In this document: positions 11,797-45,781 of the stretch, piece after piece
Layout: each line of letters starts with the position of its first letter
How positions within the stretch are numbered: position 1 is the first letter of the stretch
NCBI RefSeq assembly: GCF_000425465.1
Contig: NZ_AUDM01000008.1
Coordinates: forward strand, 1 to 64,000
DNA from: Flavobacterium filum DSM 17961
GTDB taxonomy: Bacteria; Bacteroidota; Bacteroidia; Flavobacteriales; Flavobacteriaceae
DNA length: 64,000 nucleotides
Direction: 5' to 3'
Made by a program: the position numbers and the translations under genes
Notes under the pieces: model-generated
Database searches by the model: none
Told to the model about the DNA's origin: nothing
What the model saw: only the letters and a program-made list of their open reading frames with translations

Positions 11797-11977
11797 TTCT
11801 TAAATTATACTATTTTTGTGCTTTCAAAACCGATTAGACGAACAAATTTAAGAAATGTTTCATTCTAATACTAATTTAATTTTTTTCAAAAAGCATTGGT
11901 ATTTTAACTGTATAAATGATTCTTTATTGTAAAATTAGTCTAACCAATTGAAAATTAAACACCGAACAATTTTTACA

Positions 11978-14635
11978 ATGAAATCACACGATATCCGCAA
12001 GCAGTTTTTGCAGTTTTTTGAAAGTAAAGGACATTTAATCGTTCCTTCGGCTCCTATTGTTTTGAAAGATGACCCAACCTTGATGTTCAACAATTCAGGA
12101 ATGGCTCAGTTTAAAGAATATTTTTTAGGAAATGCCGAACCCAAAAGCAAACGAATTGCCGATACCCAAAAATGTTTACGTGTTTCCGGAAAGCACAATG
12201 ATTTGGAAGATGTTGGTTTTGACACCTATCATCACACCATGTTTGAAATGCTAGGAAACTGGTCGTTTGGCGATTATTTTAAAAGAGATGCCATCAATTG
12301 GGCGTGGGAATTGTTAACGGAAGTATATAAAATTCCAAAAGAAAATTTATATGTTTCTGTTTTTGAAGGAAATCCTGATGAAAATGTACCTTTTGACCAA
12401 GAAGCGTGGGATATTTGGAAAGAATTGATCGATGAAGACCGAATTATTTTAGGAAATAAAAAAGATAATTTCTGGGAAATGGGCGATCAAGGACCGTGCG
12501 GACCTTGTTCTGAAATTCATGTTGATTTGCGTTCGGAGGAAGAAAAAGCAAATGTTTCCGGAAAAAGTTTGGTGAACAACGACCATCCGCAAGTAGTGGA
12601 AATTTGGAACAACGTATTCATGGAATTCAATCGTAAAGCCGATGGAAGTCTAGAAAAATTACCCGCTCAACACGTGGATACCGGAATGGGTTTTGAACGT
12701 TTGTGTATGGCGTTACAAGGAAAAACATCCAATTATGATACCGATGTTTTTACACCATTGATTGAAAAAGTAGAACAAATTACGGGGTTAAAATATACAC
12801 CAAATCCCGTAGGGACAGGTCGCGACCTGTCCGTTCAGGTGGATGAAGAACAAAATAAAATCAACATTGCCATTCGAGTAATTGTTGATCACATACGTGC
12901 GGTAGCATTTGCGATTGCCGATGGACAATTACCCTCTAACACCGGAGCCGGTTATGTAATTCGTAGAATTTTACGAAGAGCGATTCGTTACGGATTTACA
13001 TTTTTAAATACCAAAGAGCCATTTATTTATGAATTGGTGGCTGTTTTAGCCAATCAAATGGGTGAGTTTTTTCCTGAGATTAAATCACAACAAAATTTAG
13101 TTACAAATGTAATTCGGGAAGAAGAAGCTTCGTTTTTGAGAACGTTAGAACAAGGTTTGCAGTTGTTGGAAAATGTAGTTTCCGAAACCAAAGGGAACGA
13201 AGTTTCTGGAGCAAAAGTATTCGAATTGTACGATACGTTTGGTTTTCCAAAGGATTTAACTACGTTAATTTTAAAAGAAAAAGGATATACATTTAACGAA
13301 GCCGATTTTGAAACGGAACTGCAAAAACAAAAAGCCCGTTCTCGTGCCGCTTCGGAAGTAACAACCGATGATTGGAAAATCTTAATCGATGGCAATGTAG
13401 AAACCTTCGTTGGTTATGACCAAACGGAGAACGAAGTGAAAATCACTCGCATCCGTAAAGTAGATTCTAAAAAAGATGGAATTTTATACCAAATCGTTTT
13501 AGATAAAACACCTTTTTATCCCGAAGGTGGTGGACAAGTTGGAGACAAAGGGACTTTAGTTTCAGCAAATGAAACCATCGAAATCATCGATACCAAAAAA
13601 GAAAATAATTTGATTTTGCATTTTGCGAAACAACTTCCTGAAAATGTGGAAGCTGATTTTGTGGCGAAAGTCAATACCGATTTAAGAACTTCTACTTCAA
13701 AAAATCACTCGGCTACGCATTTGATGCATTTGGCTTTACGAACGATATTAGGAACACACGTGGAACAAAAAGGTTCATTGGTCAATCCTAATTATTTGCG
13801 TTTTGACTTTTCGCATTTTTCGAAAGTTTCAGATGATGAGATTAGACAAGTTGAAGCTTTTGTAAATGCCAGAATTGAAGAGCAATTACAATTGGTCGAA
13901 CACCGAAATATTCCAATTCAGCAAGCAATGGAGCAAGGTGCAATGGCTTTGTTTGGCGAAAAATATGGCGATTCGGTTCGAATGATTGAATTTGGTGACA
14001 GTAAAGAATTATGTGGTGGAATTCACGTGAAAAACACAGCCGACATTTGGCATTTCAAAATCATTTCAGAAGGTGCTGTGGCTGCGGGAATTCGCAGAAT
14101 TGAAGCGATTACCGGAGATGCGGTGAAAGACTTTTACAAAAATCAAGAAAATACCTTAGCGGAACTTAAAGAAGCTTTAAAAAATCCACAAGATGTTTTA
14201 AAATCAGTGGTTTCCTTACAAGATGATAATGCCAAATTGAAAAAACAAATTGAGCAATTATTGCGTGAGAAAGCTAAGAATTTAAAAGGTGAATTAGCAT
14301 CAGAGCTAAAAGAAATTAACGGTATACAATTCTTAGCCAAACAAGTTGATTTGAATCCGGAAGGAGCAAAAGATTTGGCGTATGAATTAGGTAATTTGGG
14401 TACTAATTTATTCATGGTTTTGGCTACAGCCGAGGATAATAAACCGATGTTAACGTGTTATATTTCCAAAGAATTGGTTGCTTCACACCATTTGAATGCC
14501 GGACAAGTGGTTCGTGAGTTAGGAAAATATATCCAAGGCGGCGGCGGCGGACAACCGTTTTTTGCTACAGCCGGTGGTAAAAATGTGGATGGAATTAAAG
14601 AAGCGTTGGAGAAGGCGGTTGAGTTTGTTAAATAA
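11978..14635 (+). CDS. alaS: Alanyl-tRNA synthetase
   Basis: 885 aa from ATG 11978 ([19 protein letters not shown]). The upstream in-frame TTG at 11948 would add ten residues that homologues lack. Catalytic core motifs [34 protein letters not shown], [11 protein letters not shown]; editing/SerX-like Zn motif [12 protein letters not shown] and CGGIHV; C-terminal C-Ala with the Gly-rich [14 protein letters not shown]. Length and domain order are normal, except for an extra surface segment (about residues 274-290) that includes GTGRDLS, encoded by a perfect 20-bp palindrome (12813-12832). Confidence 0.97.
12813..12832. repeat. 20-bp perfect palindrome inside alaS (in-frame repeat insertion)
   Basis: GGACAGGTCGCGACCTGTCC is a perfect palindrome. 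It is translated within GTGRDLS and does not break the alaS frame. The sequence resembles palindromes common between genes in flavobacteria; here it is intragenic. No T tract and no regulatory position support another role. Confidence 0.85.
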
Positions 14636-43340: not shown

Positions 43341-44633
43341 ATGTTTGAATTCAAAATGCCCAAAATGGGCGAAAGCATATCCGAAGCCACCATCATCAGT
43401 TGGACCAAAAACGTAGGTGATTATATTGAAGCGGAAGAAACTCTGTTGGAAGTTGCCACCGACAAAGTCGATAGCGAAGTACCTTCACCCGTTTCCGGTA
43501 CCATTACTGAAATTCGTTTTCAAAAAGATGATGTGGTGGAAGTGGGGACTGTTTTGGCGTTAATTGATGCCGAAGGGAAGCAAGAGCCAAGAAGCAAGAG
43601 CCAAGAAATTATTACTGCTAAAGTTGAATCTCAGCCAGAAGTAATTAAACCATCTAATATTGAATTTAAACAAGTAAAAACCAATCCAGATGCTTATCTT
43701 TCTCCTTTAATCATCAGTATCGCACAGAAAGAAAATCTTTCATTAGAAGAAGTGCAAAGCATACCGGGTTATGGAATTGATGGTAGAATTCAAAAAAGTG
43801 ATGTGTTCAATTACCTAAAAAACAGAAAATATCCTTTACAATCAAAACCGATAACAAATCCCGATAGCTATCGGGACAAACAACCGACAACTTTCCCTAA
43901 ACCTAAAATCAATTTTGTTGAAGGAAAAGACCGAATTGTAGAAATGGATCGCATGCGGAAAATGATTGCAGATCACATGGTTTATTCCAAGCAAACTTCG
44001 CCACACGTAACTTCTTATTTGGAAGTGGATGTGACGAATTTGGTGAATTGGCGAAATGAAAATAAAGACACATTTCAAGAGAAATACGGTGAAAAATTGA
44101 CGTTTACACCAATATTTATTGATGCCGTAGCAAAAGCGATTCAAGATTTTCCGATGATTAATGTTTCTGTTGATGAAAATAAAGTCATTGTACACAATGA
44201 CATCAATATCGGAATGGCAACTGCTTTACCAACCGGAAATTTAATCGTTTCTGTGGTAAAAAATGCCAATGAAAAAGACATGATTTCGATTGCTAAAGAA
44301 GTCAATTATTTAGCCGAAAGTGCTCGAAATAATAAACTAAAACCGGAAGATATTCAAGGAAGCACTTTCACCATTTCCAACGTCGGAACATTTGGAAGTT
44401 TAATGGGAACACCGATTATCAATCAACCGGAAGTAGCCATTTTAGCCTTAGGTATCATCAAAAAAAGACCGGAAGTAGTTACCACAGAAAAAGGAGACGA
44501 AATCGCCATAAGAAGTATGATGTTTTTATCCTTATCCTTCGATCATAGGGTAGTGGATGGATTTTTAGGCGGATCATTCTTAAAACGAGTGGGCGATTAT
44601 TTAGAACAGTTTGACAGTAATACAAAAATATAA
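43341..44633 (+). CDS. 2-oxo acid dehydrogenase E2 (dihydrolipoamide acyltransferase)
   Basis: 430 aa. Lipoyl domain 1-75 with the lipoyl Lys in EVATDKVDSEV; E3-binding domain about 128-165 (LSPLIISIAQKENLSLEEVQ, GRIQKSDVFNYL); catalytic acyltransferase about 200-430 with SFDHRVVDG (His/Asp). Linkers at 80-120 and 165-190 include repeat-encoded KQEPRSKSQEI and NPDSYRDKQPTT. Acts with the fused E1 gene; no E3 is present in the window. Confidence 0.93.
   Translation: MFEFKMPKMGESISEATIISWTKNVGDYIEAEETLLEVATDKVDSEVPSPVSGTITEIRFQKDDVVEVGTVLALIDAEGKQEPRSKSQEIITAKVESQPEVIKPSNIEFKQVKTNPDAYLSPLIISIAQKENLSLEEVQSIPGYGIDGRIQKSDVFNYLKNRKYPLQSKPITNPDSYRDKQPTTFPKPKINFVEGKDRIVEMDRMRKMIADHMVYSKQTSPHVTSYLEVDVTNLVNWRNENKDTFQEKYGEKLTFTPIFIDAVAKAIQDFPMINVSVDENKVIVHNDINIGMATALPTGNLIVSVVKNANEKDMISIAKEVNYLAESARNNKLKPEDIQGSTFTISNVGTFGSLMGTPIINQPEVAILALGIIKKRPEVVTTEKGDEIAIRSMMFLSLSFDHRVVDGFLGGSFLKRVGDYLEQFDSNTKI
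43579..43606 (+). repeat. 14-bp tandem repeat inside the E2 linker
   Basis: AGCAAGAGCCAAGA twice without a gap; the unit is not a multiple of three, so the two copies are read in different frames (EPRSK/SQE). It lies between lipoyl and E3-binding domains. Confidence 0.85.
43859..43876. repeat. 18-bp perfect palindrome in the E2 gene (in frame)
   Basis: TCCCGATAGCTATCGGGA encodes part of NPDSYRDK, in the linker before the catalytic domain. It is followed by CCGACAA-like DNA (43878-43891), the same heptamer as in paa spacers. Confidence 0.9.
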
Positions 44634-44676
44634 TTTTCTCTTTTCGTAATTTGAATTGAGAGCAAACATAAACACA

Positions 44677-45741
44677 ATGCAAGAAGTAATGACAGCAATT
44701 AAAGTAACAAAAACAGCACATTCTACCGTTGGAGAAGTCGATTTAAACAATATCGTGATGGGATTCAAGTTCACCGATCATATGTTTGTTTGCGATTATC
44801 AAAACGGCGAGTGGATAAATCCGCGAATTGAACCTTTACAGCTTATTCCGACACATCCTGCTGCCATGGCTTTGCACTATGGTCAGGCAATTTTTGAAGG
44901 AATGAAAGCCACGTTGGGAAAAGAGGGAACGCCGTTATTATTCCGTCCTTATGAAAATGCAAAGCGATTAAATTTTAGTGCCAACCGAATGGGAATGCCT
45001 ACTTTTCCGGAGGAACTATTTGTGGAAGCATTGAAACAATTCACCGCTTTAGAAAAACAATGGATTCCTACTAAAGAAGGAAGTGCTTTGTACTTGCGTC
45101 CGTTTATGTATGCCGATGAGCCTTTTATCGGAATGCGTGCCGCAACCAGTTTTAAATTTATGGTGATTGCCTCACCAGCCGGACCTTTTTTCAGCAGAAA
45201 AATTAAATTGTATGCGGAGAAAAAATATGTTCGTGCCGTGAATGGTGGAACAGGAGAAGCCAAAGCCGCAGGTAATTATGCAGCAGCCATTCGACCAACT
45301 GAATATGCTAAAGCCAAAGCATATGACCAAGTATTGTGGCTAGATGCTCACGATTTTGAATACATCCAAGAAGTGGGAACAATGAATATCTTCTTCAAAA
45401 TTGATGGTAAATTCATCACGCCAGATTTAAGCGGTTCTATTTTATCAGGAATTACGCGAATGAGTGTCATTGATTTACTACGTTCCAAAGGTTTTGAAGT
45501 CATTGAAAAACCTATCAAAATTTCTGAAATCATTGAAGCATCTAAAAACGGAACGTTAGAAGAAGCATTCGGAACCGGAACAGCCGTTGGAATTGCTATG
45601 ATTGACGAAATTGGAAATAATGATTTTACCATTAAATTCCCTGAAAATAATCCAGTTTCTGTGATGGTAAATGATACACTAAACGCTATTAAACTCCAAA
45701 AAGAAGAAGACACATTTGGTTGGATTGTGGAAGCGAAGTAA
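44677..45741 (+). CDS. ilvE: Branched-chain/aromatic amino acid aminotransferase (IlvE-like)
   Basis: 354 aa from ATG 44677 (MQEVMTAIKVTKTAHSTVGE); TTG 44656 would add seven odd residues. Fold-type IV PLP enzyme: HPAAMALHYGQAIFEGMKA, AVNGGTGEAKAAGNYAAAI with the PLP Lys, GTAVGIAMIDEIG. Usually transaminates Val/Leu/Ile; aromatic substrates are possible. It lies between the E2 and E1 genes. Confidence 0.92.
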   Translation: MQEVMTAIKVTKTAHSTVGEVDLNNIVMGFKFTDHMFVCDYQNGEWINPRIEPLQLIPTHPAAMALHYGQAIFEGMKATLGKEGTPLLFRPYENAKRLNFSANRMGMPTFPEELFVEALKQFTALEKQWIPTKEGSALYLRPFMYADEPFIGMRAATSFKFMVIASPAGPFFSRKIKLYAEKKYVRAVNGGTGEAKAAGNYAAAIRPTEYAKAKAYDQVLWLDAHDFEYIQEVGTMNIFFKIDGKFITPDLSGSILSGITRMSVIDLLRSKGFEVIEKPIKISEIIEASKNGTLEEAFGTGTAVGIAMIDEIGNNDFTIKFPENNPVSVMVNDTLNAIKLQKEEDTFGWIVEAK

Positions 45742-45748
45742 TAAACCT

Positions 45749-45781
45749 AAACCTGACAGGTTTCAAAAACCTGTCAGGTTT
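45749..45781. repeat. 15-bp perfect inverted repeat
   Basis: AAACCTGACAGGTTT (45749-45763), loop CAA, AAACCTGTCAGGTTT (45767-45781). It runs 4 bp up to the E1 start codon; each arm is itself nearly palindromic. Confidence 0.9.

Follow-up and report, generated by a model that had tools for sequence, protein, structure and literature searches.

A GTAG-tagged palindromic repeat within alaS of Flavobacterium filum and the recurrence of unrelated palindromes in the same protein loop

Results

The alaS gene, which codes for an intact alanine--tRNA ligase (AlaRS) of 885 aa, occupies positions 11978..14635 on the + strand of the stretch analysed here, the first 64,000 nucleotides of contig NZ_AUDM01000008.1 of Flavobacterium filum DSM 17961 (the window). 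The start was placed at the ATG at 11978, picked from the reading MKSHDIRK; the list of open reading frames (ORFs) begins at a TTG at 11948. The product scores 928 bits against TIGR00344 (alaS; cut-off 457) and carries the Pfam domains tRNA-synt_2c, tRNA_SAD and DHHA1. Within the gene lies a perfect 20-bp palindrome, GGACAGGTCGCGACCTGTCC (12813..12832, + strand), which from its sequence, its copies in the genome and its hairpin fold is taken as the stem of a repetitive extragenic palindromic (REP) element. As claimed in the initial annotation, the palindrome is in frame and codes for GTGRDLS; the preceding G contributes to this peptide, which forms residues 279–285 of AlaRS counted from the ATG at 11978. 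The element exceeds these 20 bp: an alignment of 36 copies reveals that the palindrome has a GTAG tag at its foot (12809..12812, +) and a decayed 3' foot, GTTC (12833..12836, +), where most other copies read [G/C]TAC. The whole divergent AlaRS loop (12800..12844, +) has 15 codons, whereas the loop of G127, the sister genome, has 8 (SNEVATIS). Residues 1–470 were modelled with AlphaFold2 from 27 AlaRS sequences, and residues 278–286 of the model have a predicted local distance difference test score (pLDDT) below 50 and lie between helices 259–269 and 290–314, in agreement with the surface loop that the initial annotation had proposed. The solved cytoplasmic AlaRS chains 4xem and 5knn have a nine-residue alignment gap at the palindrome-bearing loop.

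The length of the palindrome is weak evidence alone, since palindromes at least 20 bp long turned up in 22 of 100 runs of a Markov-1 model of the window; it is the copies elsewhere in the genome that argue strongly for a real repeat. The alaS site is the sole match to GGACAGGTCGCGACCTGTCC at up to three mismatches in the window (shuffles expected 0.00), and the 3.19 Mb genome (50 contigs) holds five such places, against none for the reversed control. The exact 24 bases made up of GTAG and the palindrome occur at three places of this genome, and the alaS loop of the sister lacks them. A palindrome arisen by chance in a loop that simply varies, as the Markov runs could have suggested, is refuted by these dispersed copies and retains practically no probability. 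The five copies are those in alaS, in waaA (in frame but in the opposite orientation; a kdotransferase gene by Pfam), at the C-terminal end of an ORF which, from its sequence, we take to be P-type ATPase-like, and in two intergenic spacers; the sequence had been described as being of the kind found between genes, and two of its five copies are indeed intergenic. Thirty-six copies from this and related genomes, with unrelated flanks, bound the element as GTA[G/C]GGACAGGTCGCGACCTGTCC[G/C]TAC. The tag reads G in 100, T in 94, A in 94 and G in 61 percent of these copies, percentages raised by orienting the copies by GTAG itself. The exact 18-mer core was found in 18 of 150 genomes of the genus, at 1 to 5 copies each, and the exact 20-mer in one of 149 genomes of the class, that of F. 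filum; the genomes drawn also included two more from the genus and one from the family.

The seven-residue block GTGRDLS is absent from all 80 relatives taken from named records, these being the top 80 among the matches listed, and the named Flavobacterium AlaRS records are at most 86% identical to the window's AlaRS over the best segment, again among the matches listed. The nearest AlaRS, L153 of genome G127, is 95% identical (SH-like approximate likelihood ratio test, SH-aLRT, 99), and has no insert; its loop is KYTSNEVATISEEQNK. Thus an ancestral loop segment is ruled out. The segment is absent from the nearest relatives and not universal among the others, and the palindrome is not unique to alaS, so that both outcomes that might have spoken against the initial annotation are contradicted. 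Since the window's loop is seven codons longer than that of the sister, the piece of ~28 bp probably replaced a few bases. In L021, the loop of which is the same as that of L206, a variant palindrome stands in place of the loop.

An alaS match was obtained in 137 of the 150 genus genomes (13 gave none), and 36 matched genomes were not taken; 101 AlaRS loops were read, the window included, of which 99 entered a tree built with the loop excluded, two short rows being left out. The span around the loop varies from 40 to 56 residues in the 101 AlaRS. A GTAG-type palindrome or a close variant occupies the loop in six of the 101 (the window, L147, where it is decayed, L148, L149, L167 and L206) and an unrelated, CGTC-like type, GTCACTCTGAGCGGAGTCGAAGAGTC, in 13; the remaining 82 have neither, L186 among them with a possible trace that might make it an additional CGTC-like case. 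Both types occur in scattered parts of the tree, the fewest changes being six for the GTAG type and 12 for the CGTC-like type. This count is blind to gain versus loss, and L147 and L148 have a peptide in common, so that the gains of the GTAG type may be five or fewer. The sisters L148 and L162 carry different palindrome families at the same place in AlaRS. Moreover, the two families share the codon at which the insert begins, the V of NEV in insert-free relatives, with L167 and L206 aligning differently. The CGTC-like type is also found outside alaS in some genomes (G052, G091 and G102); because the search pattern was made from the alaS copies, the share of its matches that fall in alaS (six of 19, G134 and G027 being outside the 101 loops) is biased and shows just that the type occurs elsewhere. 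A sequence in a record titled uncultured Myroides, L025, has the GTCACTCCGAGCGAAGTCGAGGAG type in the same loop, and the landing site may accordingly reach past one genus name.

Could selection maintain the hairpin because it regulates alaS as an RNA or DNA structure? It folds better than shuffles do, both as DNA (z -2.39) and as RNA over 240 nt (z -2.19), and in alaS of L167 and L206 the palindromes are perfect with paired differences; the L206 variant, among four copies, is seen in alaS only, which keeps this reading possible there. Against it, the L167 variant, GACAAGTC, is also present at two other places of its genome and may therefore be a source variant, and the coding strand has no terminator-like site, with one weak site on the other strand. 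Because most relatives (82 of the 101 loops) have neither type, and two unrelated types account for the rest, we consider a regulatory hairpin very improbable. That the insert brings AlaRS an adaptive change, for instance in regulation or tRNA contact, would fit with the refilling of the same loop in many lineages, but a tolerant site predicts this recurrence equally well, the peptides found at the one site are unrelated (TGRDLS, TLSGVEES, ILNDSEES) and the region is disordered in the AlphaFold2 model; such an adaptation seems to us only slightly less improbable than a regulatory hairpin.

Palindromes also recur in waaA. The loop before VFIIDTIG has a GTAG-type element in F. filum and a variant in G110, the perfect 32-bp palindrome CTGTAGGGACAAGTCGCGACTTGTCCCTACAG; five other genomes have GTAGAGACGCGATTAATCGCGTCTCTAC or variants of it, three have the CTGAAACAAGTTCAG type, and waaA of the sister, G127, has a possible decayed trace of the element. 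waaA was matched in 124 of the 150 genomes; 60 loci were taken, eight of which could not be parsed, and 10 of the 52 loops read contain palindromes, of three families, a proportion that is not an unbiased rate because the first 20 loci were the best DNA matches to the REP-bearing waaA of the window's own genome. In G044 (L343) a single ORF joins GatB to AspRS, as judged from Pfam domains, with two copies in the linker; similar long ORFs were found in G005 (L361; one copy and a fragment) and G010 (L362; one decayed copy), the domain test of the fusion applying to L343 only. REPs may have contributed to joining gatB and aspS or to spacing them.

All 39 exact copies of the 18-mer in the genus draw were placed, and 14 lie in an ORF of at least 150 aa with an ATG ahead. 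Nine of these are inside recognisable genes (two in alaS, one in waaA, one in gatB-aspS and five in genes for REP-associated tyrosine transposases, RAYTs), and all nine are in the frame that reads TGRDLS. As five of the nine are in RAYTs, shared descent may explain part of this agreement. The palindrome's other frames read GQVATCP and DRSRPV, and the whole element has a stop in one of its six frames; selection for a harmless peptide is a simple reason for the use of the TGRDLS frame, on small numbers. Of the other five ORF copies, one terminates a short ORF of G127, two follow the first ATG by 10 (L350) and 5 residues (L352), and a pair in L360 precedes, in our judgement, the true start. L350 (G138) and L352 (G025) share a kind of ORF (..TKHNTAPFS..), presumably for an M3 peptidase, that has the core palindrome at its N-terminal end, in different frames.

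The palindrome is linked to RAYTs in relatives. The transposase on contig C1 of F. filum, which has a weak Y1_Tnp match, was used as the query in the 150 genus genomes, and 11 have a close RAYT (E <1e-38, a cut-off chosen once the gap to the next match, at 1e-20, was visible). All 11 fall within the 18 genomes with the exact core (hypergeometric 2e-12, kinship uncorrected). In nine of the 11, a palindrome copy lies no more than 0.35 kb from the matched RAYT stretch, and several copies are inside the RAYT ORF; in G070 the RAYT contig has no copy. Eight of 10 RAYT ORFs have a VGTGRDLSV-like segment, in frame, before the HuH motif, decayed in two of the eight and with tandem peptide repeats after it in several; of the remaining two, one has an empty site and one repeats only. 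The motif NH[FIV]H was recognised by eye in all 11, together with WQ or WH; the Y motif is YIxNNP in four, the others having YIxxNP or YIETNQ. The best NCBI model for the relatives' RAYTs is REP_Tyr_transpos, below its cut-off. Long tandem peptide repeats, of the SDAIN, NPDEN and HNQNS types, were seen in the RAYT ORFs of L252, L255 and L256; they directly follow the in-frame REP in L252 and L255, and no REP peptide was seen in L256.

A second RAYT of F. filum, on contig C14, was rejected as the partner: a different palindrome, AAACCTGACAGGTTTTTGAAACCTGTCAGGTTT, lies on either side of this gene, which makes the C1 RAYT the better candidate. The candidate RAYT (L006 / L143) is near what we take to be a Cas1-like ORF and a CRISPR-like array. 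Two further palindromes lie in the window. CCTGACAGGTTTCAAAAACCTGTCAGG, at 45752-45778, is 11 bp past ORF 44656-45741, and the same palindrome flanks the C14 RAYT. TCCCGATAGCTATCGGGA, a perfect palindrome at 43859-43876, is in frame (PDSYRD) in ORF 43341-44633, presumably a dihydrolipoamide acyltransferase, and has five exact copies in the genome, nine at up to one mismatch.

Discussion

We consider it highly probable that a GTAG-tagged REP mobilised by a RAYT landed in a permissive loop of alaS in this lineage, leaving the enzyme intact. The roughly 28-bp element probably travels in single-stranded form, by action of the RAYT, an HuH/Y1 transposase, as is known for the transposase relatives IS200/IS605 (PMC6006769). 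A copy would have entered alaS after the split from the nearest sampled relative, in which the site is empty, and would have replaced a short stretch of the flexible loop between the two helices. The net gain is a multiple of three and the frame is open and hydrophilic (VGTGRDLSV), so AlaRS stays intact; for the enzyme, the insert is likely to be near neutral. The loops of alaS and waaA may be permissive sites where insertions survive, which would explain the repeated finding of unrelated palindrome families in them. More broadly, and with less assurance, we think it rather likely that the AlaRS, WaaA and GatB-AspRS linker loops of Flavobacterium are recurrent landing sites of REPs that supply new in-frame peptides, and that AlaRS receives two unrelated superfamilies at one and the same codon.

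Several observations weigh against a RAYT-mobilised insertion in place. Five copies are few for a REP family. The copy in the ATPase-like ORF takes up its last codons in another frame, reading TDRSRPVP rather than TGRDLS, and three copies at the N-terminal ends of ORFs read GQVATCP. The RAYTs tested score 56 and 58 bits against the REP_Tyr_transpos cut-off of 80. At E 1e-10 a RAYT is found in 28 of the 150 genomes, just 11 of which have the core, and seven of the 18 core-bearing genomes have no close RAYT; loss of the transposase would give such genomes, which also weaken the link. In F. filum itself the sequence before the C1 RAYT reads N, so that linkage is unreadable there. Lastly, the sister is nearest to the window's AlaRS in all four segments before the loop and, past it, tops one of four, in a tie, with other rows being nearest in the other three. 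Because the sister is not clearly the closest row past the loop, homologous recombination may instead have brought the REP in within an alaS segment of another Flavobacterium. A longer loop peptide (SV.TSRD.SVPNADEEK) is common to L147 and L148 and missing from the rows between them, as recombination could produce. Yet, of the six top-ranked rows listed per segment past the loop, L167 only has a GTAG-type palindrome, ranking third, in the last and most distant segment; and in seven of eight segments L149 is closest to its sister, L161. We therefore regard import by recombination as unlikely, if less so than the other alternatives, and favour insertion of the REP in place.

In the available part of the description of GTAG-tagged REPs (Di Nocera et al., 2013; PMC3733652), these resemble the alaS element in having GTAG at the foot of a stem-loop of 20–40 bp, in being spread genome-wide, often near RAYT genes, and in occurring in some ORFs, including tRNA synthetase genes; they differ in being listed for other phyla, with Bacteroidetes unnamed in that part, whereas just five copies are found here. 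Double-foot REPs, and TnpA_REP subclass 2.4, as covered by the accessible text of PMC6006769, resemble the present system in that many copies bear GTAG at one end and CTAC at the other. This subclass, defined by the motifs NH[IFV]H, WQ and YIxNNP and abundant in Bacteroidetes, shares with the RAYTs found here the NH[FIV]H motif, an in-frame REP in the RAYT gene and the occurrence in Bacteroidetes. In contrast, the REP of subclass 2.4 lies generally between HuH and Y (PMC6006769) and here before HuH, and the Y motif here is YIxxNP in most RAYTs and YIxNNP in some. Rickettsia palindromic elements (RPE), with which the initial annotation had compared the insert, are also in-frame palindromes in genes of likely functional proteins, and the comparison holds for this effect; it fails for the kind of element, as RPE end in CGTC and the alaS element has GTAG, the tag of the type tied to RAYTs (PMC3733652, in the part available). 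The CGTC-tagged REPs of the same source resemble the second palindrome type of the alaS loop, which starts with (T)GTC, a likeness of tag and layout judged by eye. That source, as far as available, also mentions that two Xanthomonas species carry distinct REPs at nearly the same position of recB.

What is already known, from the parts of these reports at hand, is that REPs occur in genes, including tRNA synthetase genes (PMC3733652), and in frame in RAYT genes (PMC6006769). A literature search of partial coverage, hence a weak negative, returned no report of in-frame REPs in Flavobacteriaceae housekeeping genes; this fits the initial annotation's remark that such insertions are little described, as a weak test of it. 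A survey from 2025 (PMC12306157) has two Flavobacterium genomes in its table, and the words intragenic and RAYT are not used in the portion available. The recurrence of unrelated palindrome families in the same loops was likewise not found described in that search, also a weak negative.

REPs are usually treated as spacer DNA. If the interpretation given here is true, they are also a steady source of loop sequence in housekeeping enzymes. A free-living genus in which REPs refill loops provides replicate natural insertions, along with sister species in which the sites are empty, and such insertions allow neutrality, the rate of arrival, and the site choice of the transposase versus selection to be tested. 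Moreover, where Flavobacterium proteins contain peptides such as GTGRDLS or TLSGVEES, these can be scars of mobile DNA and not conserved motifs.
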